Source: a virus
Strand: one strand, 5' to 3'
DNA length: 40,083 nt
IMG/VR virus record: IMGVR_UViG_3300032093_000322
Span: 1-40,083 of that record
A program made the position numbers and the translations under genes. The notes beneath the pieces were generated by a model. The model was given only the letters and a program-made list of their open reading frames with translations. It made no database searches and had not been told where the DNA came from. This document shows, in pieces, positions 10,838-33,064 of this stretch. How positions within the stretch are numbered: the first letter of the stretch is position 1; each line of letters starts with the position of its first letter.

Positions 10838-11122
10838 CTATTCTAGAAAGATACCACAAACACTATGCTCTGGAACAAGATACATGAGCTTACCCATAAC
10901 TTTAACCTCTTCTACCATTTGCGATGGCACAAGAATAAGTTTATTTTTTAAACCATTGGTAGAATATTCTGAACCACCGCTGGCTTTAATAAGTCTCATT
11001 AATTTATGACTTTCAACCTTTTTGTAGTCTTCCGGTAAAAGGAAAGCAGAGGATTTCTCCTCTGCCTTTTGCTCTTCTACTGACTCTACCAAAAGATATT
11101 TATTCTTTGGATAGAATTCCAT
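10838..11122 (-). CDS. GroES-like co-chaperonin
   Basis: 94 residues, the length of GroES (97) and T4 gp31 (111). The order of segments fits the GroES barrel: an initial strand (NKYLLVESVEEQ), a loop with E-rich and LPEDY residues at the mobile-loop position, and a strand/loop with GLKNKLILVPSQM where GroES has its Gly-Asp-x-V strand. The C-terminus (YLVPEHSVCGIFLE) corresponds to the final dome/strand ending I-[LV]-A. Phage co-chaperonins partner with host GroEL to fold large capsid proteins. Sequence identity to GroES is low, so this rests on pattern and size. An 8-bp stem with a GAAA loop occurs in its coding sequence (11046-11065). Confidence 0.6.
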   Translation of the reverse strand: MEFYPKNKYLLVESVEEQKAEEKSSAFLLPEDYKKVESHKLMRLIKASGGSEYSTNGLKNKLILVPSQMVEEVKVMGKLMYLVPEHSVCGIFLE

Positions 11123-11403: not shown

Positions 11404-11646
11404 CTAACGGTTAGATACTTTTTGGATTTCTCCAAGAAGGTAACGATACTTCTCTTCCAGTTTACCACGCTCTTGTGCTTCTTGCAAGTGATCCAACCTA
11501 ACTTTTATTCCTGAATCTTTATTATCGACTATAAGTTTACGGTAGAATCCAAAATCATCAGACATATAATATGATTCATGCGAAAATCGAATCTCATGAT
11601 TAGAACGCTTTGTTAATTCATTTTCAATAATTTTTAAATTAAACAT
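11404..11646 (-). CDS. Hypothetical protein, first gene after the promoter/terminator at 11.68 kb
   Basis: 80 residues starting MFNLKIIENELTKRSNHEI. I chose the ATG at 11646 because GGAGG lies 5 nt before it; a TTG 12 nt upstream would overlap that site. Not recognised. It is the first gene of a group (11646 to about 7.7 kb) that appears to begin from a sigma-70-like promoter in the preceding terminator hairpin. Confidence 0.65.
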   Translation of the reverse strand: MFNLKIIENELTKRSNHEIRFSHESYYMSDDFGFYRKLIVDNKDSGIKVRLDHLQEAQERGKLEEKYRYLLGEIQKVSNR

Positions 11647-11660
11647 AGCTTCCTCCAAAT

Positions 11661-11693
11661 AAAAACTGCACCATGCAATATAACATGGTGCAG
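11661..11693 (-). terminator. Rho-independent terminator after leader protein B
   Basis: Minus strand: CTGCACCATG, 8-nt loop, CATGGTGCAG, then TTTTTATTT. The 10-bp perfect stem and T tract lie 23 nt past the stop at 11717. The loop contains a -10-like TATATT (see promoter at 11677-11705). Confidence 0.85.
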
Positions 11694-11705
11694 TAATGTT
11701 GTAAA
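11677..11705 (-). promoter_or_regulatory. Sigma-70-like promoter nested in the terminator hairpin
   Basis: Minus strand TTTACA (11700-11705), 17-nt spacer, TATATT (11677-11682). Each box matches consensus at 5 of 6. The -10 lies in the hairpin loop, so a transcript starting about 7 nt on would begin in the right arm and could not form the terminator. It would express the 11646 gene and those after it. Inferred from sequence only. Confidence 0.55.
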
Positions 11706-11716
11706 GAAAAAATTAT

Positions 11717-12988
11717 TTATTTTTCTTCATCTGATATTTCTGAATCATCAAATTTGTCAGATTTTTTACCTAAAATAGATCTTAAAGATTTATTAAAATC
11801 ACTTAATTTATCATCTTCTGGTTCTGTTTCGGGCTTATCTATTTCTGGTGGCTCACCAGATGTTCTTTTAACAAATTCATCTTTACTGATTTTTTCAGTT
11901 TTCATGCTATTTTTAGAAAACTTTAAAGTTACAGTTTTAGGTTTTTGTTGTAATAATAAAGAATTTATAGCTTTATTGGTTTCTTCGGTCTTTTGAGAAC
12001 TAGTACCGTCTTTTTTAAATTCATCAAAACCTAAATCATTATAGGTAAAATAAGTTGCTGAAGCATCTATAATTTCATACTCTTCTGGATTGTCTTTAGA
12101 TGGTCTAGTAATACCTGTAATTATTAAAGATACAGGTACAAAACCATGATAATATCTTTCTTTTTTGATCTCTAATTTATCATCAACTATTTTTGATAAC
12201 TTTAAAGTTTTTTTATAATTATCAATACTTTCATTATAACTTTTTATAGCTTTTGGACTATCACCGTACTTTGTATCTCTTTCCCATTCTAAATGCTCAA
12301 TATATCTTTTAAAATCATCAAGATCATAGGAGTTTATATATTTTTGTTTATATTGTTCTGATTCTGCGCCAATTTTAAATCTCCAAAAAGCTCTTAAGAA
12401 AACTGATGGGTCATAATCTGTTAATTTTCTTGCTCTTTTTTCTGAATCGTATCTACCAGTTTTTATGGTACCTATATCTGGCTGCATTACTGGCGGCATC
12501 GGTACTGTTCTTTGTCCATATTCATCTTTATATTTATCTATTTCGTACCTTGGATCACCACCAGAACCTATTGTTGTACCATAATATTCATACTGTAATC
12601 CCGTTAAACCATTTAATTCAGGAACCATATCAATTATATTCTTTAAATAAGAATACATTACTCCTCTACTGTTGCCTCCATCTCCTATATTTACAACTTT
12701 TCTTGCAGCGGCAGTAAAGCGTTCCTCTTCTAATGTAGATTTATTAGAATCAAAATGGGTAACGGCACTAATAAATTCTTTTATCTGATCCGGGGTAAGA
12801 TTATATTCTCGTAATGTGCTGTTTTCTTGCTCATCGTCTAAAAGATAATAAAAGGTAATAGATTTATCTATTGGCTTTGGTTTAGCTTTAGGTTTAATTT
12901 TAGTAGGTGGTTTTTTTGGTGGTCCTTGAAGCTCTTTTATCAATTCTTCTAAAATTATTTTTTTTAAATATGATTTATGGATTTTCAT
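11717..12988 (-). CDS. Leader-bearing protein B (MKIxK...IIxEEL N-terminus)
   Basis: 423 residues. The N-terminus MKIHKSYLKKIILEELIKEL shares the leader of proteins A and C. It is followed by a Pro/Lys linker (residues 23-42) and a long body (about 45-360) with mixed helices and strands, then an acidic C-terminus ending DDSEISDEEK. No known domain or catalytic motif is apparent. It lies 21 nt after leader protein C and ends at a strong terminator, so the two form a two-gene late-type unit headed by the motif at 13766-13775. Leader cleavage after I12-L-E14 or I17-K-E19 is possible by analogy with T4 prohead protease sites. Function unknown. Confidence 0.7.
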   Translation of the reverse strand: MKIHKSYLKKIILEELIKELQGPPKKPPTKIKPKAKPKPIDKSITFYYLLDDEQENSTLREYNLTPDQIKEFISAVTHFDSNKSTLEEERFTAAARKVVNIGDGGNSRGVMYSYLKNIIDMVPELNGLTGLQYEYYGTTIGSGGDPRYEIDKYKDEYGQRTVPMPPVMQPDIGTIKTGRYDSEKRARKLTDYDPSVFLRAFWRFKIGAESEQYKQKYINSYDLDDFKRYIEHLEWERDTKYGDSPKAIKSYNESIDNYKKTLKLSKIVDDKLEIKKERYYHGFVPVSLIITGITRPSKDNPEEYEIIDASATYFTYNDLGFDEFKKDGTSSQKTEETNKAINSLLLQQKPKTVTLKFSKNSMKTEKISKDEFVKRTSGEPPEIDKPETEPEDDKLSDFNKSLRSILGKKSDKFDDSEISDEEK

Positions 12989-13009
12989 TATTTTTCTGAA
13001 GTTTATAAA

Positions 13010-13732
13010 CTATTCCGGTAATGCTAAAGAAGCAACTTTATTCTTTACAGCACCTTTTTTATAATCTGATATTAATATAGCCATTTTAGTTAATTGAAAT
13101 CCAAAATTTTCAGCATCTATCATAATTTGATCAGTTTGTTTAAGTTGTGATACATAAGAGGCATCTGAGCGAGCCATAAAACTTCCGGGTTGTACATATT
13201 TTTCATCTGCTGGTAGTTGTTCATCAAACTCATTCTTACCTGATTTATCGAAATTAGTAAATCTAGAGATATTAGCTTTTATTTTTTGTTTAATATCATT
13301 AATATCGATTTTTTTATCTTTATACATATTTTCAATTACTTTTTCAAATTCTGGTTTGTCCATGTTTTCTAAAACAGACTCAACAACATCTAGACCATAT
13401 GGTATGCTCATATATTCGTCTTTTTGACCGGGATAAACATATGCCCTATTAATACCACCTCGCGGTTTTAATCTAACAGATAAAGCGGTTTTAGCACTTG
13501 CAAATCGATCTCTTGCAGCTTCTTTTTGTCTCTCTCTTTCTTCTTCAGCGCTTTTTTCGGCAGCTATTTCTTCCTTTGATTTACCGGGTACAGGAACAAG
13601 TTTAGGAGCATTTGGATCTACGTATTCTGGCTCGGGGTCATCCAAGTAAGGAAGAGGAGCACCATATTCTTTAACTACTCGTTTTAATTCTTCATTAATA
13701 ACTTTATTTAAAAACTTTTTTGAAATTTTCAT
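13010..13732 (-). CDS. Leader-bearing protein C (MKIxK...VIxEEL N-terminus)
   Basis: 240 residues from the ATG at 13732, 6 nt after GGAG; an upstream in-frame TTG lies inside that site and was rejected. The leader MKISKKFLNKVINEELKRVV matches proteins A and B at M-K-I-x-K, L8, I12, E14-E15-L16. A Pro/Asp-rich linker follows (residues 23-60), then a Lys/Glu-rich helix (KSKEEIAAEKSAEEERERQ) and a mixed domain. First gene of the B/C unit. Its promoter-like motif lies inside a 13-bp hairpin after the RNR gene. Unknown function; a late, head-associated protein is the best inference. Confidence 0.7.
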   Translation of the reverse strand: MKISKKFLNKVINEELKRVVKEYGAPLPYLDDPEPEYVDPNAPKLVPVPGKSKEEIAAEKSAEEERERQKEAARDRFASAKTALSVRLKPRGGINRAYVYPGQKDEYMSIPYGLDVVESVLENMDKPEFEKVIENMYKDKKIDINDIKQKIKANISRFTNFDKSGKNEFDEQLPADEKYVQPGSFMARSDASYVSQLKQTDQIMIDAENFGFQLTKMAILISDYKKGAVKNKVASLALPE

Positions 13733-13750
13733 ATTTTTCTCCAATAAAAT

Positions 13751-13783
13751 GCCTAAAATACTAATATAAATAGTATTTTAGGC
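13751..13783 (-). terminator. Hairpin after the RNR gene, terminator-like
   Basis: A perfect 13-bp inverted repeat, GCCTAAAATACTA / TAGTATTTTAGGC with a 7-nt loop, lies 19 nt after the RNR stop. On the minus strand ATTTTATT follows. The stem is AT-rich and the T tract imperfect, so strength is uncertain. It holds the late-type motif in its left arm and loop. Confidence 0.6.
13766..13775 (-). promoter_or_regulatory. Candidate late promoter motif TACTATTTAT, inside a hairpin
   Basis: Exact copy of the 10-mer. Five bases are in the left arm of the 13751-13783 hairpin and five in its loop, 33 nt before the ATG of leader protein C. A transcript starting just downstream would lack the left arm, as in the nested promoters at 11677-11705 and 20301-20330. 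Confidence 0.55.
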
Positions 13784-13802
13784 AAGTAAAAACAAATATT
13801 TT

Positions 13803-15665
13803 TTATTTAATTGGACAAGCGCCGCCTTCACATTCAAGTGAACTTAATAAATCACCATCTCCTACACCATTATCAATATTAATTGGTTTAATTTTAGCAG
13901 ATAGTTTTTCATATTGTTCTTTGCTGATTTTTTCTTTTGGTGCTTGTTTAAAACCATGTTCGCTGTGACAAAGAAAAGAAATGGTCTTAAGATATTTAAG
14001 ATTATCTTTTAACCAAGTTTTTAATTCTTCAAGTTCACTTTGCTTATAATATACAGTTACAGATACAGCTTGGTCTGCCCAGTGTTTTTGTGCCATTTTA
14101 ACAACATCTAATTGTTTCCACGTAGTCCAATCTTCATCAGCTACAGGCGCGTTTTCTGGTGCGGCTACATAGAAATCTACAACTTGTGTATTATGGTCTA
14201 ATGTGCCATCAAAACGGATTGTTGGTTCCATATAATGACCGGCTTCACGTAATAATGGCAACAGGGGATCGCTACCAGCAAAACGTACACGCTGAATAAT
14301 ATAGCGTGAGTACGCTGGATGTACGCCTTCATAACAATCCATTACTTTGCTAATAGTGCCACTTGGTTTGATAACTGTAGTGCGAATACTTTCTGGGATA
14401 TTTAATTCCTTAGAATATTCTATATTTTCTTTTTGTATTGCCGCATAAGCGCGGTCAAGTGATTCTGGGTTAAATAGATCACTCTGTAGGCAACCAGTAA
14501 TACCAGTACCAATTCTGCGATTACGTTTAACAACAGCATCACATTTTGGTTGGTGATATTTTTCCATTGTTACGCGTTTACCCCAACGATGCATAAGTTT
14601 AGCAGCTTCTATAAATTCTTCTTCGTTTAATAGATTTGGTAGAGCAATTTCTTGAAGATTGCAAGGCTCACCATCTTCTAGTGTAGCTTCAGCGCAAGGA
14701 TTTACACCAATAGCACTATCTGCTTTTAATTCACCCATACGAGCAAATTTCTGGATATTCTTACGATTTACAATACCAAATGGCTCACCTTGTTCATAGG
14801 TTTTCCAAAATAGTGGATGCAAATCTTCTACATCGTCTACAACAACAGAATAATTTGCCATCGCACGTTGAGTAGGAATATTACCTAAATCCCAACGTTT
14901 AGCCTTTAAGTATTCCTTATCCCAAGGATCACCAAGAATAATAATAGCTGAACGACGAACGTTACCAGCTACAACCATTTCTCCAATTGAACAAAGAATA
15001 TCTGCTGCATCTACTGGACGTAAATGTTTGCCTTCACGGGATTTTAAAATAGCTACTAGTTTATCAACATAAGAAATTAAAGGTTTTGGACCGCTTGATG
15101 TTCCGCCGAACCCTTGGATCGGTTCACCAGCAGCACGAATACAAACCGTAGAATAAGAAAAGGATTTACCAGTAACAAAATATGATTCTAATACACGACG
15201 AGTTAATTCATTCCAACCTTCACGGGAGTCTGGAACAATAAAATCGGCATCTTTGCTATCTCTGTTTAAGATAGAAACATCTTTTTTTAATTTTGGTAGT
15301 TTACTGACAAAGCGATGTTCAACGCTCATGCCTACACCACCACCAAGCATTAGCAAATCCTGTGCTAATACAAAGTTATTCCATTCATCACTAGCTACAA
15401 ACCAACAATTGTTAAGAGCAACACCACCAAGTTTTTTATGACTTGGAGCGCCGCTATACCACCAACCACGCCCTGCTGGTCCAGCTTTACGATTAAGTAA
15501 ATAATAACGCAAACGCTCTATTTCTTTTGCTGATACATTATGTCCCTGAACATTACCAGATATAACACGCTCCACAGTATCATTCCAATTTTCAAGAACA
15601 CCAGTATCTTTACGAGCATACGTGCGTTTATAAACAACTTTTGCAAGGTTGGACCAGTTAGACAT
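13803..15665 (-). CDS. nrdJ: Class II (adenosylcobalamin-dependent) ribonucleotide reductase, monomeric type
   Basis: 620 residues, shorter than Lactobacillus RTPR (about 739). Its N-terminus (RTYARKDTGVLENWNDTV) resembles that monomeric triphosphate-reductase group. Active-site residues: C87 in NNCWF and C335 in EPCNLQEI as the redox pair, and the radical cysteine and glutamate in NPCAEATLEDG (C324, E326). The C-terminal CEGGAC (C612, C617) is the swinging dithiol that passes electrons from thioredoxin, encoded next door. Class II enzymes need vitamin B12 coenzyme but no oxygen or small subunit, and none is encoded here. It makes deoxynucleotides for phage DNA. The mature length argues that no intein or intron is present. 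Confidence 0.93.
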   Translation of the reverse strand: MSNWSNLAKVVYKRTYARKDTGVLENWNDTVERVISGNVQGHNVSAKEIERLRYYLLNRKAGPAGRGWWYSGAPSHKKLGGVALNNCWFVASDEWNNFVLAQDLLMLGGGVGMSVEHRFVSKLPKLKKDVSILNRDSKDADFIVPDSREGWNELTRRVLESYFVTGKSFSYSTVCIRAAGEPIQGFGGTSSGPKPLISYVDKLVAILKSREGKHLRPVDAADILCSIGEMVVAGNVRRSAIIILGDPWDKEYLKAKRWDLGNIPTQRAMANYSVVVDDVEDLHPLFWKTYEQGEPFGIVNRKNIQKFARMGELKADSAIGVNPCAEATLEDGEPCNLQEIALPNLLNEEEFIEAAKLMHRWGKRVTMEKYHQPKCDAVVKRNRRIGTGITGCLQSDLFNPESLDRAYAAIQKENIEYSKELNIPESIRTTVIKPSGTISKVMDCYEGVHPAYSRYIIQRVRFAGSDPLLPLLREAGHYMEPTIRFDGTLDHNTQVVDFYVAAPENAPVADEDWTTWKQLDVVKMAQKHWADQAVSVTVYYKQSELEELKTWLKDNLKYLKTISFLCHSEHGFKQAPKEKISKEQYEKLSAKIKPINIDNGVGDGDLLSSLECEGGACPIK

Positions 15666-15678
15666 TTTATATTACTCC

Positions 15679-15933
15679 CTATTGGTTAATAAATGTTTTT
15701 AAACGTTCTGCTGTAGCTCCACCGCTTATACGTGCTACTTCTTGATTATCTTTAAGTAGTACAAAAGTTGGAACAGCGCGAATATTATATTCTTCTGCTA
15801 CGTGCGCTTGTTCATCAACATCTACTAACTCATATTGTACTCCATTTGCGCTTTCTTTTAGAGTGTTAAAAACTGGCTTTGTGCGTTGACATGGAGCACA
15901 CCAAGTAGCTGAAAACATTATGATTTTTTTCAT
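15679..15933 (-). CDS. Thioredoxin
   Basis: 84 residues, a minimal thioredoxin fold. The active site is W-C-A-P-C (SATWCAPCQRTKPVF), and the cis-Pro comes in IRAVPTFVLLKDN. It is shorter than E. coli Trx (108), lacking the first strand/helix, as is common in phage versions. It lies 13 nt upstream of the class II RNR and is probably its reductant. The WCAPC motif is more glutaredoxin/short-Trx-like than the usual WCGPC. Confidence 0.93.
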   Translation of the reverse strand: MKKIIMFSATWCAPCQRTKPVFNTLKESANGVQYELVDVDEQAHVAEEYNIRAVPTFVLLKDNQEVARISGGATAERLKTFINQ

Positions 15934-15936
15934 ATT

Positions 15937-16239
15937 TTATTCCTTTTTATTTGGCACTTCTATGTGCCCTATTTTAGCATTTTTGTATAATGGATTCTTA
16001 ACGGCAAATTCTGCGGCAGTTTTTCCAATACTAAATTGGAAACCAAGAAATTTGGTACGATACCAATCAGTAAGCATATTTAATGCATTAAAAAATACTA
16101 ATCCAAATATCGGAGGATGCACTTTAATGTATTTTTTTACTGGTTTTTCTGTGCCTGCCAGAACAGCATCTTTTGATCCTGTTACTATTAATCTTTTTTG
16201 ATATCCAAATAATTTAAAAATAAAATCTATAGCTTTCAT
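15937..16239 (-). CDS. Hypothetical protein
   Basis: 100 residues from the ATG at 16239, which has AAGGA 7 nt upstream; an earlier in-frame ATG lies within the previous gene. It starts MKAIDFIFKLFGYQKRLIV, has one mildly hydrophobic stretch (HPPIFGLVFFNALNML) and ends with basic residues. No family recognised. It is 3 nt upstream of thioredoxin. Confidence 0.6.
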   Translation of the reverse strand: MKAIDFIFKLFGYQKRLIVTGSKDAVLAGTEKPVKKYIKVHPPIFGLVFFNALNMLTDWYRTKFLGFQFSIGKTAAEFAVKNPLYKNAKIGHIEVPNKKE

Positions 16240-16255
16240 TTTATATCCTTTCTTA

Positions 16256-16480
16256 TTAATCATTATCTTCAACAAAATGTGACATTATAAATCCAAAAAA
16301 CCCAATAGTTAAAGTAAGAGGAATAAATAATAATATTCCTTCTCTACTGTTTAAAATAAATTTTTTAGAACTTTCCATTTCTGGTTTTGTTGGTAAATAT
16401 AAATATCTTAACATCCTAAGAAATAGAAAAAAATTAAAGCATATATAAGTTGCAGCTAATGTATTTAATAAAATTTTCAT
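16256..16480 (-). CDS. Small membrane protein, two predicted transmembrane segments
   Basis: 74 residues. Hydrophobic segments at about 4-24 (LLNTLAATYICFNFFLFL) and 49-66 (ILLFIPLTLTIGFFGFIM) are separated by a charged loop (PTKPEMESSKK). ATG overlaps the helicase stop (ATGA). Likely an inner-membrane protein; function unknown. Confidence 0.6.
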   Translation of the reverse strand: MKILLNTLAATYICFNFFLFLRMLRYLYLPTKPEMESSKKFILNSREGILLFIPLTLTIGFFGFIMSHFVEDND

Positions 16481-17862
16481 GATGCTTTTTTCTCCTTCTT
16501 ATAATTTTTATATTTCTGCTTTAAACTCTCTTCTTGTTTTTTAGTAGCTTTCTCAATAATTTCTGTAGCAGTTTCTGCACTTTGAGAAAGTACCTTTATT
16601 TTAACATTACTTGTGTCCATAAATATAGGGAAAACTAATCCATCAGGGCCATTTCTATTTTTAGCTACAAATAATCTACCTTCGTTCATATTTTTATCTT
16701 TAATTGTTCTTGAGATAGTAAATATGAAATCAGCTACAAAGCATTTATTGAATGCTTCGGAAATACTTTCCATAGTGATTACTTCTGCATTTAATCCACT
16801 GCGGTTTGTTTGAGAAGCTGTCCAGAGTGTGCATTGATATACCTGTGCTAATCCACGCAATTCTTCATAGATGCTCTCAAGCTCAATCCGTTTCTCCTTT
16901 TGGGCGCTTATAGGTCTAATTAGATCGCCATAGTCTACAATTACCATATCAATACGAAAATCTTTGCGTTTTAGTTTTTCGAGATGGTGTTTGATGGTGT
17001 TAGTAGAGGCGGATTTAGTAGGATATTCTTTAATAATAAGCTTGCCCTTTACATCTTTGACGCCTTCCCAAACTATTTGCTTTTGATCTTTAACTTCTGC
17101 TAATTGGATACCTGTAATACAGGAATCATAACGCAGTGCAACAACCTTATCTTGAAGTTCTAAAGTGTAGTGGACTACATTTAATCCAGCTTGAAGTGCC
17201 ATAGCGCCAAGATGGACCAATGCCATACTTTTACCGGCACCAGTAGGAGCAATAACTACTCCTAATTCACCGCGCCCAAGTCCACCTTTAGAAATATTAT
17301 CAATTAATTCCCAACCAGTAGAAATTGGATTACGTGCTTTCAACTCAAAGCGTTTCTCAAAGTCAAGAATAAAATCATAGCCATGATTATTATCCGTTCC
17401 AAGCTTAAGAGCATCGTTAATGATTTTAGAGATTTCATCATAAGAAGAGTTTTGTATTAATCCTACGCTTTTAATCATAGCTTCTTTTAATTTCTGTTTC
17501 TTGCAGAAATCAAGAGAAATATCTTTTATATGCTGTTCACCTTCAACAGAAAACTCATTTGCACTAATTCTAGCATAATAGTCGCGTATTTGTTTTTGTA
17601 ATAGCTCATTTTCCTTATCTAAGTCTGTACGAAGAATAGTTGTAATTGTATCGCGGGTTGGATGCGTGCCATACTTTTTACGATAATCAAATATCTTTTC
17701 AACAAATACACGTAAGTATTTTAATTCAAGAAAATTAATATCTAGTACTTCACTAACTTGATCAGCAAATGCGCGATCATCAAGAATAAGCTGAACAAGA
17801 TTTTCTTGAAACTTTGTACCATATCTCTCAAATGTCGGTGCTTCATTTAAAAACTGGCTCAT
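16477..17862 (-). CDS. DnaB/gp41-type replicative DNA helicase
   Basis: 461 residues, the DnaB size. The N-terminal helical domain (1-170) is followed by a RecA-like ATPase. Walker A is APTGAGKS (205-212) after the DnaB-type sequence STGWELIDN. Walker B is in DMVIVDYGDLI, and later motifs include WTASQTNRSG (sensor Gln) and FIFTISRTIKDKNM with the arginine-finger region. The C-terminus is a Lys/Glu-rich helix. It unwinds DNA at the fork, hexameric, 5'-3'. No primase or helicase loader is seen in the window. Its stop overlaps the membrane protein gene. Confidence 0.93.
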   Translation of the reverse strand: MSQFLNEAPTFERYGTKFQENLVQLILDDRAFADQVSEVLDINFLELKYLRVFVEKIFDYRKKYGTHPTRDTITTILRTDLDKENELLQKQIRDYYARISANEFSVEGEQHIKDISLDFCKKQKLKEAMIKSVGLIQNSSYDEISKIINDALKLGTDNNHGYDFILDFEKRFELKARNPISTGWELIDNISKGGLGRGELGVVIAPTGAGKSMALVHLGAMALQAGLNVVHYTLELQDKVVALRYDSCITGIQLAEVKDQKQIVWEGVKDVKGKLIIKEYPTKSASTNTIKHHLEKLKRKDFRIDMVIVDYGDLIRPISAQKEKRIELESIYEELRGLAQVYQCTLWTASQTNRSGLNAEVITMESISEAFNKCFVADFIFTISRTIKDKNMNEGRLFVAKNRNGPDGLVFPIFMDTSNVKIKVLSQSAETATEIIEKATKKQEESLKQKYKNYKKEKKAS

Positions 17863-17863
17863 A

Positions 17864-18829
17864 TTAGCAATTCTCCAAAACTATTCTGTGCATATAGGCA
17901 AACAACTCCTCTAGATTAACTTCTCCAAAACCATCTTTCAACATCATTTTAATGATTTCGGTTTTATTAAATGTACATTCACTATTTTCTAATGTGTAAT
18001 TAATTTTTTGTACATCTTGTATAGAAACATTTGGTATTGCTAATTGCATAATTTTATAATTGTCAATTATTTGTTGTTCTGAATCAACAATACTCTGGTA
18101 TATTTTAATTTGTGATTCGCTGTTCCTACAATAATTTATTACATCATTAATCATTAGATTTTTTTGTTCTTTTAATATAGGAATTCTTTTAGCAATTGTT
18201 GGTATACCAGCACCTTGAACGCCGTCAATATTATCACTTTTATCACCAGAAATGGCTCGTACCAAACAGAAATTAGAAGGATGAATTCCATACTGTTCTA
18301 TAATTCTATTCGTATTAAGTACTTCTTCTTTAACTGGTCTATAAAGGATTGTATCATCATTACATAACTGTATAAAGTCCTTATCATTAGAAACAATAAT
18401 TTTGTTATATTTTTGAATAGTAGCATGCTGCACAATCACTGAGATTAGATCATCGGCTTCTACACTATCTAGAAGCAATTGTATAACCGGCATATTGTTT
18501 AAATATTCTGCCAATCTAGTCATCTGCCATATCTTATTTTTTAATTCTTGATTTTCGTCAAGCAATTGTACATTTCTATTAAGACGCAATGGCTTACGAC
18601 CATTCTTATAATTTTTATTCATTAATCTACGTTTAGTAGAACCACCTTTACCATCCCAACAAATAACAACTCTATTTGGATTAATAAATTTACAAAGCTT
18701 TTGTAAGCTTTTAATAAAACCTAAAACACCACCAATAGGATTACCATTGGTGGCGATGGAAGGATTAACTGTATAATTTCTTAAATACAAATTATTTGCA
18801 TCTATAACTAATACTTTTTTCTTATCCAT
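17864..18829 (-). CDS. 5'-3' exonuclease / flap endonuclease (T4 RNase H and PolI N-terminal family)
   Basis: 321 residues. The acidic metal-binding motifs of the FEN family are present: D10 in VLVIDANNLYLRN, WDGKGGSTKRR (the arch region start), SVEADDLI, VSNDKDFIQL and AISGDKSDNIDGVQGAG (the helix-hairpin-helix DNA-binding part). It removes RNA primers from lagging-strand fragments. In many phages it is separate from the polymerase, as here. It lies 1 nt from the helicase and shares its transcript. Confidence 0.93.
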   Translation of the reverse strand: MDKKKVLVIDANNLYLRNYTVNPSIATNGNPIGGVLGFIKSLQKLCKFINPNRVVICWDGKGGSTKRRLMNKNYKNGRKPLRLNRNVQLLDENQELKNKIWQMTRLAEYLNNMPVIQLLLDSVEADDLISVIVQHATIQKYNKIIVSNDKDFIQLCNDDTILYRPVKEEVLNTNRIIEQYGIHPSNFCLVRAISGDKSDNIDGVQGAGIPTIAKRIPILKEQKNLMINDVINYCRNSESQIKIYQSIVDSEQQIIDNYKIMQLAIPNVSIQDVQKINYTLENSECTFNKTEIIKMMLKDGFGEVNLEELFAYMHRIVLENC

Positions 18830-18836
18830 TTAATCC

Positions 18837-19199
18837 TCAAAACTTATAAGTACCAATAACCTCATTATCAACAGTATAATAAACCTTACGAATACCACGT
18901 TCTTCCATAACCGCATGACACATAGCGCAAGGCTTACTCATGCGAGCGTCTTCGCCATTCTTTGAGCATCGTGCGACATACATAACAGAACCTTTTGTTA
19001 TATGTCTAGGAATATTCAAGATCGCCTTGATCTCGGCATGGTACGTTGCATTTCCTTTTTCTTCTGGGCGGTAATCCTTTCCAACTGAACAATACCGCTC
19101 TGAATTGATTCCCATGCCAACAATGGCACCACCGCGCACAAGAACCGCACCATGTCTAAAATTACCATAAGTAGAATTTCCAGCGAGTTTTTTAGCCAG
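18837..19199 (-). CDS. Cytidine/deoxycytidylate deaminase family protein with unresolved 5' end
   Basis: The zinc site is clear: H-A-E (TYHAEIKAI) and P-C-A-M-C. The only ordinary start in this frame is a GTG at 19139 (VRGGAIVGMG), which would cut off the first helix and strand of the fold. The same frame runs on upstream as LAKKLAGNSTYGNFRHGAVL, which fits the deaminase N-terminus, to a CTG at 19199 with GGAGG 10 nt before it. The frame stays open a little further, with no ATG, GTG or TTG. The frame +1 to it holds a short ORF with a strong ribosome site (19192-19305). Start at an unusual CTG, a +1 shift from that ORF, or a sequence error are all possible. Likely role: dCMP to dUMP for ThyX. 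Confidence 0.7.
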   Translation of the reverse strand: MAKKLAGNSTYGNFRHGAVLVRGGAIVGMGINSERYCSVGKDYRPEEKGNATYHAEIKAILNIPRHITKGSVMYVARCSKNGEDARMSKPCAMCHAVMEERGIRKVYYTVDNEVIGTYKF

Positions 19200-19305
19200 C
19201 TGGAAGATACCTCCGTACTTTCTTTGATGCTTCTCCTCCCTTCATCTGGCTGTCCTCAATGTTGCTGTGCTTCTTCACATAGCTCGTCGTCGCATCGGTA
19301 TCCAT
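19192..19305 (-). CDS. Short ORF overlapping the deaminase 5' end (probable N-terminus in another frame)
   Basis: 37 residues, starting MDTDATTSYVKKHSNIEDSQ and ending RRYLPAG. It has an excellent AAGGAG site and a consensus sigma-70 promoter just upstream (19331-19359), so it is probably translated. Skipping one base at the AAA-G near its Lys-Lys would continue into YGGIFQLAKK and the deaminase, giving a 155-residue protein of the expected size. Alone it has no recognisable function. Confidence 0.5.
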   Translation of the reverse strand: MDTDATTSYVKKHSNIEDSQMKGGEASKKVRRYLPAG

Positions 19306-19330
19306 ATCTTTCTCCTTTGAAAGTGTAAGC

Positions 19331-19359
19331 ATAATAGTACAACTAAACTGTGATGTCAA
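19331..19359 (-). promoter_or_regulatory. Sigma-70-type promoter
   Basis: Minus strand TTGACA (19354-19359, perfect), 17-nt spacer, TATTAT (19331-19336, 5 of 6). The -35 lies in the last codons of uvsE. It would drive the deaminase, exonuclease and helicase genes, probably early with host RNA polymerase. Confidence 0.65.
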
Positions 19360-20272
19360 ACTGTCTACGCATTTGTAGTACAGCAAGATTTTTCATCTTA
19401 GCCTCAACATCAACATCAATTAGATTATCACGAATAGCTGCCAGCTGTATATCAGGAACATAATGAATAAAATTAGAATGCGCTCTGCGCTCTGTATATG
19501 AACCATTTTCCATTCCCGGTTCAGTATTAGAAAGGTGCTGCAATGGCTTAATCTTACCCCATGTTTTGCTGGTTTCATAAAATGCATCTATGAAAGATAG
19601 ATCATCACTTCCAAAAGTATGGTGATGAGAATCAAGGACAATAGGAATACCGGTTTTTTCATGAACTTGAAGTAGTTGCTTAACATTATAACACCTTTCA
19701 TCATTCTCAAGAGTAAGACGGTTTTTTACGCTTTCTGGAAGCGTTCTAAAGATATCAACAATTTTGCTATTTCTATCTTTTTTGCCACCATGAATATTGA
19801 TTGCATAATAGGGAGTTTTTTCAAAACCCATCATATCAAAAATCCATGCATGATATTCAAGTTCACGAATAGAGTTTTGGATAACCTTATCGCTATCGCT
19901 TGAAATAACAGTAAATTGACCGGGATGACAAGTGACACGAATATTATGCGAATGAAACAAGCCACCAAGATATGCAAGCTTGTTTTTTAGCGATGCATCA
20001 TCTTTTGCAAGATGAGAACAAAACTCAAATAGAGGGAAAAGAGTGCTAGTAAGCCTGAAGGATTTAATATTATTTTCAATTAGTTTTGGAAATATTTGAA
20101 TATGCTGATCTACGTTATTATGATAAGTATCAATAATTCTTTGATCATTGTATTTGCCGTTTTTATAAGCTCCGAGTTGCAGCATTTTTTCATCAATAAG
20201 ATTGATAATTTCTTTATTGCCATTTCTTTTCGTTTTTTCTTCAACCCACTGGCAGCAAATACTAAGACTCAT
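19343..20272 (-). CDS. uvsE: UV DNA damage endonuclease (UvsE/UVDE family)
   Basis: 309 residues from the ATG at 20272, 5 nt after GGAGG; a longer frame reaches into the terminator hairpin and is rejected. The TIM-barrel signatures are present: SFRLTSTLFP, VTCHPGQFTV, YYAINIHGGKKDR, LTLENDERC and PIVLDSHHHTF, which supply His, Glu and Asp ligands for the metal cluster. UVDE nicks 5' to pyrimidine dimers and starts an excision repair path independent of UvrABC. It would protect phage DNA from sunlight. It follows recA, from which it is separated by a terminator with a nested promoter. Confidence 0.95.
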   Translation of the reverse strand: MSLSICCQWVEEKTKRNGNKEIINLIDEKMLQLGAYKNGKYNDQRIIDTYHNNVDQHIQIFPKLIENNIKSFRLTSTLFPLFEFCSHLAKDDASLKNKLAYLGGLFHSHNIRVTCHPGQFTVISSDSDKVIQNSIRELEYHAWIFDMMGFEKTPYYAINIHGGKKDRNSKIVDIFRTLPESVKNRLTLENDERCYNVKQLLQVHEKTGIPIVLDSHHHTFGSDDLSFIDAFYETSKTWGKIKPLQHLSNTEPGMENGSYTERRAHSNFIHYVPDIQLAAIRDNLIDVDVEAKMKNLAVLQMRRQFDITV

Positions 20273-20280
20273 ATAGCCTC

Positions 20281-20317
20281 CAAAAGAAAACCGCTCCAGT
20301 ATTCTACACTGGAGCGG
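20281..20317 (-). terminator. Rho-independent terminator after recA
   Basis: Minus strand CCGCTCCAGT, 7-nt loop, ACTGGAGCGG, then TTTTCTTTT. A 10-bp GC-rich stem lies 19 nt past the recA stop; the T tract overlaps the sequence before the uvsE ribosome site. Confidence 0.88.
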
Positions 20318-20330
20318 CAATATATGTCAA
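20301..20330 (-). promoter_or_regulatory. Sigma-70-type promoter nested in the recA terminator
   Basis: Minus strand TTGACA (20325-20330, perfect), 18-nt spacer, TAGAAT (20301-20306) in the hairpin loop. Transcription would begin in the right arm, so uvsE RNA made from here escapes the terminator that stops recA RNA. The 18-nt spacer is one longer than ideal. Confidence 0.55.
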
Positions 20331-20335
20331 CCGAC

Positions 20336-21481
20336 TTAGTTTAGATTTTCTTCTGCCTCTTCGCCTTCAATATTATAGTAATTCTTTGCATCGCCTTCAC
20401 GGGTATCAAATTTTACAATTACTTCTCGATCCATGATGTCAAGAACTGATTTTTTGAAAGCTTCGTCTTTGCTCATTAGTTCTTCCCAACCGCTTTGTTG
20501 GAATTTCTTTGGCGTACCTGCAACATCTAATTCGTACCATGCGCCCATTTGTTTAATAAACGGTTTAATGGCTTCAAAGATGCTTTCGTTATCCAATACA
20601 CCAACACTTCCGCCCCACATGATTTTGAAAAGACATTCACGACCAGCAGTACCAAAACGAGATTTTTCTAATCTTGCTTTGACTTCACTACCAATCTTAT
20701 AGCCGCGCTCATCAATAACATAGCTATCTTTTGCTTTTCTTCCAGTTAGCCAAACACGCAAGCTATAGGAATAGCTTAATGCTTTACCACCGGGAGTTGT
20801 GTATCTTTCACTATCTGTAGCATACTTAATATTTTGAACCTGTAGATTGGTCTTTAATTGATTTAAAATCAGAAGCGTGCTTTGACTATTGGCAATTGGT
20901 TGAATCAATTTAGATAAACCCTTTGCTAGAATGCGCGGTTTAACTGCCATAGAAGACTGTGGATCAAAATCACCTTCTAGATCTGTTTTACTTGGAGTTA
21001 ATGCCATAGAATCCCAAATAAACAACATTCTATTTTGATTATTCTTTAACAAGTCTTCGATACTTTCCAAAACAAATTCTACGCTTTCTGCTTGTGTATA
21101 AAGAACTTTAGAAATGTCACAACCAGCCTTAGTTAAGAACTCTGGATCGATTGCACTTTCACTATCAAAATAAATAACATCAATACCCATTTTTTGTGCA
21201 TTAGCTGCAATCTGTGCAGCCATGTAGGATTTACCAGAACCTTCCAATCCTGCAAGTTCTGTTACTTTACCTACTGGAATTCCTGCCAACTTTCCACGGC
21301 AGATAATTGAATCAAGCCATCTTGAACCAGTAGAGATCCAATCATTAACTTCTGTTGGATTATCTTCTTGTAAGTCAAAAGAAACTTCACGACCACTTTT
21401 TTTATTTAATAGTTCACGCAATTGATCAATTGATACTTTACCAGCAGATTCTTTTTTATTTTTTCCCGTTGCCATTGACAT
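20336..21481 (-). CDS. recA: RecA-family recombinase
   Basis: 381 residues. Walker A is GLEGSGKS (78-85). Walker B is MLFIWDSMALTPS, and the L2 region is in LLILNQLKTNLQVQNIKY. The TPGGKALSYSYSLRVWL segment is typical of RecA/UvsX, including the conserved G-G-x-A. It binds single-stranded DNA to promote strand exchange and recombination-dependent replication. The C-terminus is acidic (YNIEGEEAEENLN), as in RecA. ATG at 21481 is 5 nt after GGAG. It is next to the SSB gene, from which it is separated by a terminator. Confidence 0.95.
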   Translation of the reverse strand: MSMATGKNKKESAGKVSIDQLRELLNKKSGREVSFDLQEDNPTEVNDWISTGSRWLDSIICRGKLAGIPVGKVTELAGLEGSGKSYMAAQIAANAQKMGIDVIYFDSESAIDPEFLTKAGCDISKVLYTQAESVEFVLESIEDLLKNNQNRMLFIWDSMALTPSKTDLEGDFDPQSSMAVKPRILAKGLSKLIQPIANSQSTLLILNQLKTNLQVQNIKYATDSERYTTPGGKALSYSYSLRVWLTGRKAKDSYVIDERGYKIGSEVKARLEKSRFGTAGRECLFKIMWGGSVGVLDNESIFEAIKPFIKQMGAWYELDVAGTPKKFQQSGWEELMSKDEAFKKSVLDIMDREVIVKFDTREGDAKNYYNIEGEEAEENLN

Positions 21482-21493
21482 ATTATCTCCTAT

Positions 21494-21527
21494 AAAAAAT
21501 GGGGAACAGAATTTTCTCTGTTCCCCA
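21494..21527 (-). terminator. Rho-independent terminator after the SSB gene
   Basis: Minus strand TGGGGAACAGA, 6-nt loop, TCTGTTCCCCA, then TTTTTT, an 11-bp perfect stem 27 nt past the SSB stop. RecA needs its own promoter or readthrough. A weak TAAACA-17-TATACT lies just upstream of the stem. Confidence 0.88.
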
Positions 21528-21553
21528 AGTATACTCTACATATTACACTTTGT

Positions 21554-22318
21554 TTAGTTAGACATTAGCTCTGCAAACGCTTCATCTACTGGGCTTTTTG
21601 CCTTAACAGCAGCAGCATACTTTTCAGTAGTAGAAGAACCTTCTTCTGCCTCTTCATCAGTATTACCAGCTAGATGTTCATCTAAAATCTTGCCTACTTC
21701 ATCACTATTCTTACGTGTGTGAAGAGTTTCAAAATCTGGCAAAGATTCTAGAAGTTCTTTACACTCTGCGTCACTACCTTGACAAAGCTTACTTGTCTTA
21801 CGTGCAGGAGTTACCTTGGTAGTAGGATATGAAGCACCGGGAACCTTATTAGCAGCAATGGTCAAATCTGTACCATTAGCTGGATCTGTAATATCTCCAT
21901 AATCTGGATTTAGTACAAGATTGATAAGATCTTGGTACACAAGCTTACCATAGCCCCAGATCTTGATTCCTTCCTTCTCTTCTCCACGAACTACTACTGG
22001 AGAGAAAAAGCGTTGGCGTGGAAGAAACTTCTTAGCCATCTTTGCACTTTCTTCAGTCTTTTCTCTGTAGAGCTTGCTAGCAAAATCGCAAACCGCGCAT
22101 TCATCACCAAAGTTTTTCTTTGGGCAAAGGAATCCACCTTGTGAACCTACTTCGTAGTGAAACCAGTATTCCTTAAATGGATCGCCATCTGATGTTGGAA
22201 CGATTCGGAGAGAATACGTTTGCCCCTCTTTTGGACTCCAGAAGTTTGTTTTAGAACCGCCACCCTTGTTTTGCAATGCATTAAGCTTAGACTTCATTTT
22301 CTTTAGATCAATACCCAT
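21554..22318 (-). CDS. Single-stranded DNA-binding protein, T4 gp32-like
   Basis: 254 residues. The N-terminus (MGIDLKKMKSKLNALQNKGG) is basic, as in gp32's cooperative domain. The core has H54, C65, C74 and C77 (HYEV ... GFLCPKKNFGDECAVCDF), which matches the H-x11-13-C-x8-9-C-x2-C zinc site of gp32. The C-terminal 40 residues are acidic (HLAGNTDEEAEEGSS), the usual tail for partner proteins. It coats single-stranded DNA at the fork and works with RecA and the helicase. It starts 85 nt after the preceding gene, in a gap with a hairpin. Confidence 0.9.
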   Translation of the reverse strand: MGIDLKKMKSKLNALQNKGGGSKTNFWSPKEGQTYSLRIVPTSDGDPFKEYWFHYEVGSQGGFLCPKKNFGDECAVCDFASKLYREKTEESAKMAKKFLPRQRFFSPVVVRGEEKEGIKIWGYGKLVYQDLINLVLNPDYGDITDPANGTDLTIAANKVPGASYPTTKVTPARKTSKLCQGSDAECKELLESLPDFETLHTRKNSDEVGKILDEHLAGNTDEEAEEGSSTTEKYAAAVKAKSPVDEAFAELMSN

Positions 22319-33017: not shown

Positions 33018-33027
33018 ATAATTAGTA
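33018..33027 (-). promoter_or_regulatory. Late-type motif TACTAATTAT before tape measure
   Basis: A 9-of-10 match to TACTATTTAT on the minus strand, between the terminator and the tape measure ATG, 21 nt before it. Its place right after a terminator supports promoter function. Confidence 0.45.
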
Positions 33028-33030
33028 AGT

Positions 33031-33060
33031 AAAAAAAAAGTGAGCAGCATAGCTGCTCAC
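33031..33060 (-). terminator. Rho-independent terminator between the chaperone and tape measure genes
   Basis: Minus strand GTGAGCAGC, 3-nt loop, GCTGCTCAC, then nine T. A 9-bp stem, 4 nt past the stop of the out-of-frame extension at 33065, which supports that extension being the true end of the gene. Confidence 0.9.
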
Positions 33061-33064
33061 CTAG

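Follow-up and report, generated by a model that had tools for sequence, protein, structure and literature searches.

Promoters embedded in intergenic terminator hairpins of an uncultured water phage and its relatives: probable self-exempting variants of a known promoter-terminator cassette

The window analyzed here is an IMG/VR virus record (IMGVR_UViG_3300032093_000322) of 40,083 bp from an uncultured water phage. All large genes of the window are carried by the minus strand. They include genes for a DnaE-like polymerase, a ribonucleotide reductase, a tail sheath, a tape measure, a UV endonuclease, UvsX, a gp32-like single-strand binding protein, and a T4-type baseplate protein. Several of the hairpins with the sequence of terminators that separate genes of the window are physically combined with the predicted promoter of the next gene. 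Two layouts of such cassettes can be distinguished. In layout B the −10 box is centered in the hairpin loop, whereas in the flush layout A the −10 box ends −3 to +6 nt from the start of the stem. Both layouts are enriched next to genes of the window phage and its relatives, and the cassettes are probably terminators from which the RNA started within them is exempt. The features of the window are listed below, and hairpins are referred to by their upper coordinate.

11700–11705, minus strand: −35 box TTTACA of the nested promoter at the site of the 80-amino-acid gene
11677–11682, minus strand: −10 box TATATT, 17 bp from the −35 box, forming the 6-nt hairpin loop
11665–11694, minus strand: terminator hairpin of 12 bp with a loop of 6, followed by TTTTATTT; predicted start at ~11669, in the right arm
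11404–11646, minus strand: downstream gene, 80 amino acids, with GGAGG at 11656–11652
20325–20330, minus strand: −35 box TTGACA at the uvsE site
20301–20306, minus strand: −10 box TAGAAT at the hairpin apex, 18 bp from the −35 box
20290–20318, minus strand: terminator hairpin of 13 bp, followed by TTTCTTTT; predicted start at ~20293, in the right arm
19343–20272, minus strand: UV-damage endonuclease (UvdE/UvsE) gene, downstream of hairpin 20318
13766–13775, minus strand: late-type 10-mer TACTATTTAT in the left arm and loop
13750–13784, minus strand: terminator-like hairpin of 14 bp (4 G-C) with loop TTTATAT, followed by TTTTATT
13010–13732, minus strand: gene downstream of hairpin 13784, ~240 amino acids, no confident family
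21500–21527, minus strand: terminator hairpin of 12 bp with a T tail before uvsX, flush layout
21528–21556, minus strand: promoter TAAACA-17-TATACT, abutting the left arm; start predicted at ~21520, in the left arm
20336–21481, minus strand: UvsX/RecA-type recombinase gene, downstream of hairpin 21527 and upstream of hairpin 20318
33038–33062, minus strand: ordinary terminator without a nested promoter, with the late-type variant TACTAATTAT after it, at 33027, in the usual order

The window contains five intergenic terminators on the coding strand (33062, 21527, 20318, 13784, and 11694), and a promoter element is positioned at the apex of three of them. The hairpins have the sequence characteristics of intrinsic terminators: a GC-containing stem, a short loop, and a 3′ U tract in the sense direction. 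The T tracts of hairpins 11694 and 20318 are followed by GGAGG and then by ATG. The 80-amino-acid protein encoded downstream of hairpin 11694 has no Pfam match. The first-pass annotation of the window, which was made from the sequence alone, had placed the −10 boxes of two promoters in the loops of GC-rich terminators, with the predicted start sites in the right arms. The site at 11661–11705 (TTTACA-17-TATATT) is present in the sequence as described. At 20281–20330 (TTGACA-18-TAGAAT) the promoter and the predicted right-arm start were borne out, but the −10 box is not confined to the loop: the longest pairing, of 13 bp, leaves a strict loop of just AGA, and the −10 box spans the loop and the top pairs. 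The annotation also described a hairpin at 13751–13783 whose left arm and loop hold a late-type 10-mer, which is correct, whereas the stem given as 13 bp is counted here as 14 bp. Because this stem is AT-rich, the description as GC-rich fits only hairpins 11694 and 20318. Hairpin 13784 also contains a weak sigma70-like match, TTTACT-16-TATATT. At the per-hairpin rate found in shuffled sequences (1.65/89), the probability of at least three nested sites among five is P ~6e-5, a value that counts 13784 via its weak sigma70-like match and was calculated after the sites were known. A further strong hairpin with a T-containing tail is located inside a coding frame at 11043–11068 and is conserved in relatives L003, L004, L005, L006, L007, L012, L017, L022, and L069.

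Relatives of the window phage were collected by two protein searches, which provided 43 and 27 loci. Terminator-like hairpins were identified on both strands of ten long contigs, one of which is the window, and in loci L003–L071, with the exclusion of hairpins positioned at most 80 nt from a contig end. The 326 hairpins were reduced to 205 that are non-redundant at 75% identity. Eighty-nine of them are gene-proximal, that is, at most 60 nt from an open frame with a Shine-Dalgarno-like sequence, and the other 116 are not. A promoter was called if the −35 and −10 boxes each matched in at least four of six positions, with a total of at least 9 of 12 and a spacer of 16–18 bp. Layout B was found in 12 of the 89 gene-proximal terminators, compared to 1.65 ± 1.26 in shuffled sequences (maximum of 5 in 300 shuffles), and layout A in 24, compared to 2.62 ± 1.68 (maximum 7). 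The enrichment is retained when the total score is lowered to 8 (B 15 versus 5.9 shuffled, A 32 versus 8.9) or raised to 10 (B 4 versus 0.24, A 15 versus 0.42). Neither layout is in excess among hairpins that have no gene within 60 nt (B 3/116 versus 1.65, A 4/116 versus 2.88). Nesting is thus not confined to one window, and the flush layout (21527 in the window) occurs twice as often as the loop-centered one.

Loops of AT-rich terminators might resemble −10 boxes by chance, with no transcription starting there. The window is AT-rich, its total number of promoter-like sites equals that in shuffled sequences, and about 13 of 89 shuffled loops carry TAnnnT. A comparison of real with shuffled loops had been proposed as a check in the first-pass annotation. 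Centered −10-like boxes were found in 25 of the 89 gene-proximal terminators, compared to 13.2 ± 3.0 in shuffled loops (maximum of 23 in 500 shuffles), and in 12 of the 116 hairpins without a gene, compared to 13.2. Furthermore, when positions are counted from the loop center, the −35 matches cluster sharply at two places upstream of the hairpin. Matches to the −35 box in at least four of six positions occur at a spacer of 17 in 10 of the 25 loop −10 boxes, and in at most three at every other spacer from 8 to 35. The excess of layout B when a −35 box is required, the peak at spacer 17, the lack of excess in gene-less hairpins, and the −35 and −10 letters that do not vary among diverged orthologues (see below) argue against coincidence, which is a highly improbable explanation. 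Pure chance was rejected on the numbers for both layouts (12 versus 1.65 for B, 24 versus 2.62 for A), and the nested geometry is, as judged from these sequence comparisons, not accidental. The boxes are of the sigma70 type, with hexamers 16–18 bp apart that are kept in relatives. After removal of exact duplicates, 41 cassettes precede 12 gene families; layout B occurs in four, layout A in nine, and one has both. The single layout A cassette in the two-layout family is misfiled: the L005 cassette of the 80-amino-acid gene (TTTACA-17-TACATT) is of layout B by eye.

The conservation of the cassettes was analyzed in orthologous loci. A layout B cassette precedes the UV endonuclease gene in 11 of the 27 loci found with that protein, as identified by reading of the sequences; one of the 11 is identical to the window and two are identical to each other. 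The 16 other loci, which are mostly more distant, lack the cassette. In the alignment of 13 uvsE sequences, three of which came from other searches, the TTG of the −35 box, the TA...T of the −10 box, the T's of the tail, and a G of the GGAG are invariant. The letters of the stem vary, but 90.9% of the aligned cells are paired, and 6 of the 11 pairs exhibit double changes. The covariation score of 0.415 exceeds those of shuffled alignments (0.210; 0/500) and of slid ones (at most 0.193). The site of the 80-amino-acid gene behaves similarly: inspection by eye showed the hairpin, with a TA box at the top, in 14 of 15 orthologues, window included, and in the 13 aligned sequences 88.8% of the cells are paired, 4 of 11 pairs have double changes, and the covariation score is 0.262 versus 0.145 shuffled (0/500). 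Conserved boxes together with a compensating stem are the trace that two constraints, a DNA promoter and an RNA hairpin, should leave. The claim of the first-pass annotation that the arrangement reflects design is well supported by the enrichment over shuffled sequences, the preferred 17-bp spacer, the link to the following gene, and the compensatory stem changes.

The T tail of the cassettes is one-sided. In a set for which a tail was not required, at least five of the nine nucleotides after the stem are T in 11 of 13 layout B cassettes, whereas at least five of the nine before it are A in only 1 of 13. The nine nucleotides after the stem of 36 cassettes, which came from a scan requiring a T-rich tail, contain 5.78 T's on average, compared to 2.86 before the GGAG of ordinary genes (n = 293). 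The median energy of the full hairpin is −19.6 kcal/mol for layout A (n = 24) and −21.4 kcal/mol for layout B (n = 12). When the same stretch is folded from the predicted start, the medians are −4.0 and 0.0 kcal/mol, respectively. These energies fit the loss of the hairpin in local RNA that the first-pass annotation predicted. Because of the hairpin energies and the one-sided tail, RNA from upstream should stop at the cassette and RNA started in it should run on. The hairpin and U tract would end transcripts coming from the upstream gene, and the promoter of the next gene would be set so that its start site falls within that hairpin, on the right side if the −10 box is in the loop and on the left side if it is flush with the stem. 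Local RNA, with the left arm missing entirely or by half, would form no terminator and continue through the U tract and Shine-Dalgarno sequence into the gene. A stretch of ~60 bp could thus reset transcription between genes. In this scheme the stop of upstream RNA, the activity of the promoters, the sites at which they start, and the escape of local RNA are predicted from sequence, and the earlier description of the sites as insulator-promoters is partly supported.

Two alternative functions of the hairpin concern the RNA rather than its synthesis. The hairpins may protect or process RNA ends; they would form the 3′ ends of upstream messages and, with layout A, a short hairpin at the 5′ end of local ones. 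Layout A indeed leaves a 5′ stem of 4–6 bp with ~−4 kcal/mol. However, no stem remains in layout B (0.0 kcal/mol), and stability needs no T tail, which makes this explanation quite unlikely. The other alternative is a translational hairpin as at the T4 genes e and I-TevI, in which long transcripts hide the ribosome site and local late ones do not. Previous reports describe a late promoter inside a hairpin and late RNA without the 5′ arm at e and I-TevI, and late promoters in hairpins also at segB of T4 and mobE of Aeh1 (PMC2988022; PMC3014915). The loss of the 5′ arm from the local RNA is shared with the cassettes studied here. In the T4 type the hairpin pairs with the Shine-Dalgarno sequence and affects translation, whereas the window hairpins are terminator-like and leave the ribosome site free: at all three sites the GGAG is positioned outside the stem, 3′ of the T tract. 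Hiding of the ribosome site in the manner of T4 was rejected for this reason, and a translational role is very unlikely.

The late-type 10-mer provides a third version of the arrangement. The window contains four exact copies of TACTATTTAT (902, 3764, 13775, and 38152), all on the minus, coding strand and 30–62 nt before gene starts, without an evident −35 box. In the ten contigs, 28 of 37 exact copies are positioned 12–70 nt before a start; for 200 permuted 10-mers the mean is 0.72 and the maximum 3. The motif is therefore a real start-associated element. With one mismatch allowed, it is not over-represented in the window (12 versus 17 shuffled); the exact form and its position stand out. It is likely to be the late promoter of the lineage, as judged from its placement. 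The motif is often located 3′ of a terminator rather than inside one. In the window, L006, L013, and G003/L009, the reductase gene is immediately followed by a hairpin whose left arm and loop contain (T/C)ACTATTTA(T/A); these hairpins differ in their stems, and the downstream frames differ in length. The minus strand of the window at 938–1207 encodes an 89-amino-acid protein with a match to sigma-70 region 4 (Pfam E 2e-5, just above the cut-off), which is a candidate for the factor reading TACTATTTAT. In L028 and L040 the ribonucleotide reductase appears as two matches within one open frame (1044 and 964 amino acids, respectively), which suggests an in-frame insertion such as an intein.

The combination of a promoter with a stem-loop has been named before. 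Promoter-early stem-loops (PeSLs) of T4-type phages are described as 'composite conserved promoter-terminator motifs' (Arbiol 2010; Comeau 2014). The idea of a promoter-terminator cassette is therefore not new in kind. The stem-loops of PeSLs are reportedly effective terminators. A PeSL is a strong sigma70-like promoter physically combined with an intergenic stem-loop, and this combination is found here. Without a tail requirement, hairpins centered on a −10 box occur at 20 of 585 strong promoter-like sites in six T4-type phages (RB49 5/144, Aeh1 4/125, KVP40 3/94, RB43 1/70, 44RR 5/57, and T4 2/95), and in none of the shuffled sequences, two for each phage. It is very likely that these hairpins are PeSLs. 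T4 was used as a negative control because a strict scan with a T tail found no cassette of layout A or B among 15 hairpins in 150 of its 169 kb; the two hairpins of T4 centered on a −10 box were found in the promoter-first scan without the tail rule. A cassette between gene 39 and RB49p005 of RB49 (NC_005066, 3192, minus strand; L225) consists of the consensus boxes TTGACA-16-TATAAT with the −10 box as the loop of a 13-bp hairpin, followed by a T tail.

With regard to a possible placement of the window phage among T4-type phages (Straboviridae), a tail sheath, a gp32-like protein, and T4-type baseplate proteins are present, but the DnaE-like polymerase and the reductase have their best matches elsewhere. 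Judged by the tail sheath, the closest isolate is Microcystis phage Mel-JY01, in which no cassette of either layout was found among 6 gene-proximal hairpins, and one of each among 146 strong promoters in the promoter-first scan. The window phage and its relatives differ from T4-type phages in the DnaE-like polymerase, weak matches to T4-type records, and the quantity of flush layout A. Their cassettes also differ in the tail: at least five T's follow the stem in 3 of 31 T4-type cassettes, compared to the 11 of 13 layout B cassettes of the window family. PeSL cassettes within one genome are reportedly alike, which would allow recombination between them. This trait was not found here: cassettes of different genes have a mean identity of 0.417 within a contig (n = 28) and 0.422 across contigs (n = 578). 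Genes may also be exchanged or inserted beside PeSLs; with regard to this, the same flush cassette, with an identity of up to 0.97, precedes uvsX in some contigs and genes of 69–70 amino acids in others. The window cassettes are, as far as sequence comparison tells, a variant of the PeSL promoter-terminator cassettes, and thus of an already named composite element.

The scarcity of T tails in T4-type phages speaks for the alternative that the hairpin is a DNA operator, at which a dimeric regulator of the phage or host binds across the −10 box and controls the promoter, termination being incidental. One palindrome centered on the −10 box recurs without T tails at early promoters of RB49 (36963, 39107, and 159230) and KVP40 (92002 and 141963), and such palindromes fit an operator or a recombination repeat better than a terminator. 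In the family of the window, however, the T tail is present and one-sided, and stems before different genes are no more alike within a contig than across contigs, unlike those of a shared operator. A shared operator was rejected on these two grounds, and operator function in general is unlikely. Three near-identical combinations of a promoter with a CCAGCCGCGC-GAAA-GCGCGGCTGG hairpin without a T tail are located in G001 (75778, 76497, and 77634, plus strand), on the strand opposite to most terminators; they are perhaps small RNAs.

Promoters with hairpins are also known from less related viruses. The haloarchaeal virus HGTV-1 has a repeated motif of a TATA-box and inverted repeat before many genes, which is likened to PeSLs in its description (PMC3950731). 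The HGTV-1 promoter is archaeal, unlike the sigma70-type boxes of the window. Promoters of the N4 virion RNA polymerase are short DNA hairpins read by the phage polymerase. They share a hairpin within the promoter with the cassettes, but the −35 and −10 boxes studied here fit a sigma70-type enzyme. A search of open-licence papers for promoters inside terminators found nothing on point.

Several observations weigh against the reading of the cassettes as self-exempting terminator-promoters. A DNA search for isolates with near-identity to the window gave no match, and the best isolates by protein are less than 60% identical to the window proteins. The case of 13784 depends on one late-type motif, and the gene after this hairpin has no orthologue among the loci of relatives. 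The start site was taken as 7 nt after the −10 box, which is an assumption, and the residual stem of layout A could have its own role. No promoter was called in 4 of the 13 uvsE sequences even at four of six matches per box, and some cassettes have poor −10 boxes (TACAAA, TAATCT). The sites are not independent, as the 41 cassettes belong to 12 downstream-gene families, only four of which have layout B. The set of extra contigs is uninformative (G004 with 65% GC 0/2, G009 1/1, G006 a near-copy of G003). With these points considered, self-exempting terminator-promoters are still favored as the probable identity of the cassettes, with moderate confidence. Reinitiation after termination is mentioned in a previous report (PMC11347151). 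The mention prompted a more speculative reading, which is rather improbable: the terminator might serve as a loading device, in which polymerase released at the U tract stays on the DNA within ~15–30 bp of the embedded −10 box and restarts, so that it would be recycled into the next gene in addition to the insulation.

If the cassettes are self-exempting, one 60-bp element would end one message and begin another, and the new RNA would not be stopped by the terminator in which it starts. This would explain how readthrough is avoided between closely packed phage genes, and it would provide a simple sequence-only rule for operon boundaries in uncultured phages, as well as a ready-made building block for compact genetic constructs. 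The PeSLs of T4-type phages would also gain a concrete, testable reading, and the cassettes would be a setting in which to examine whether polymerase restarts locally after termination. Should the cassettes act as loading devices, the two sigma70 layouts and the late-type version would together represent a general rule for the operon boundaries of the lineage.

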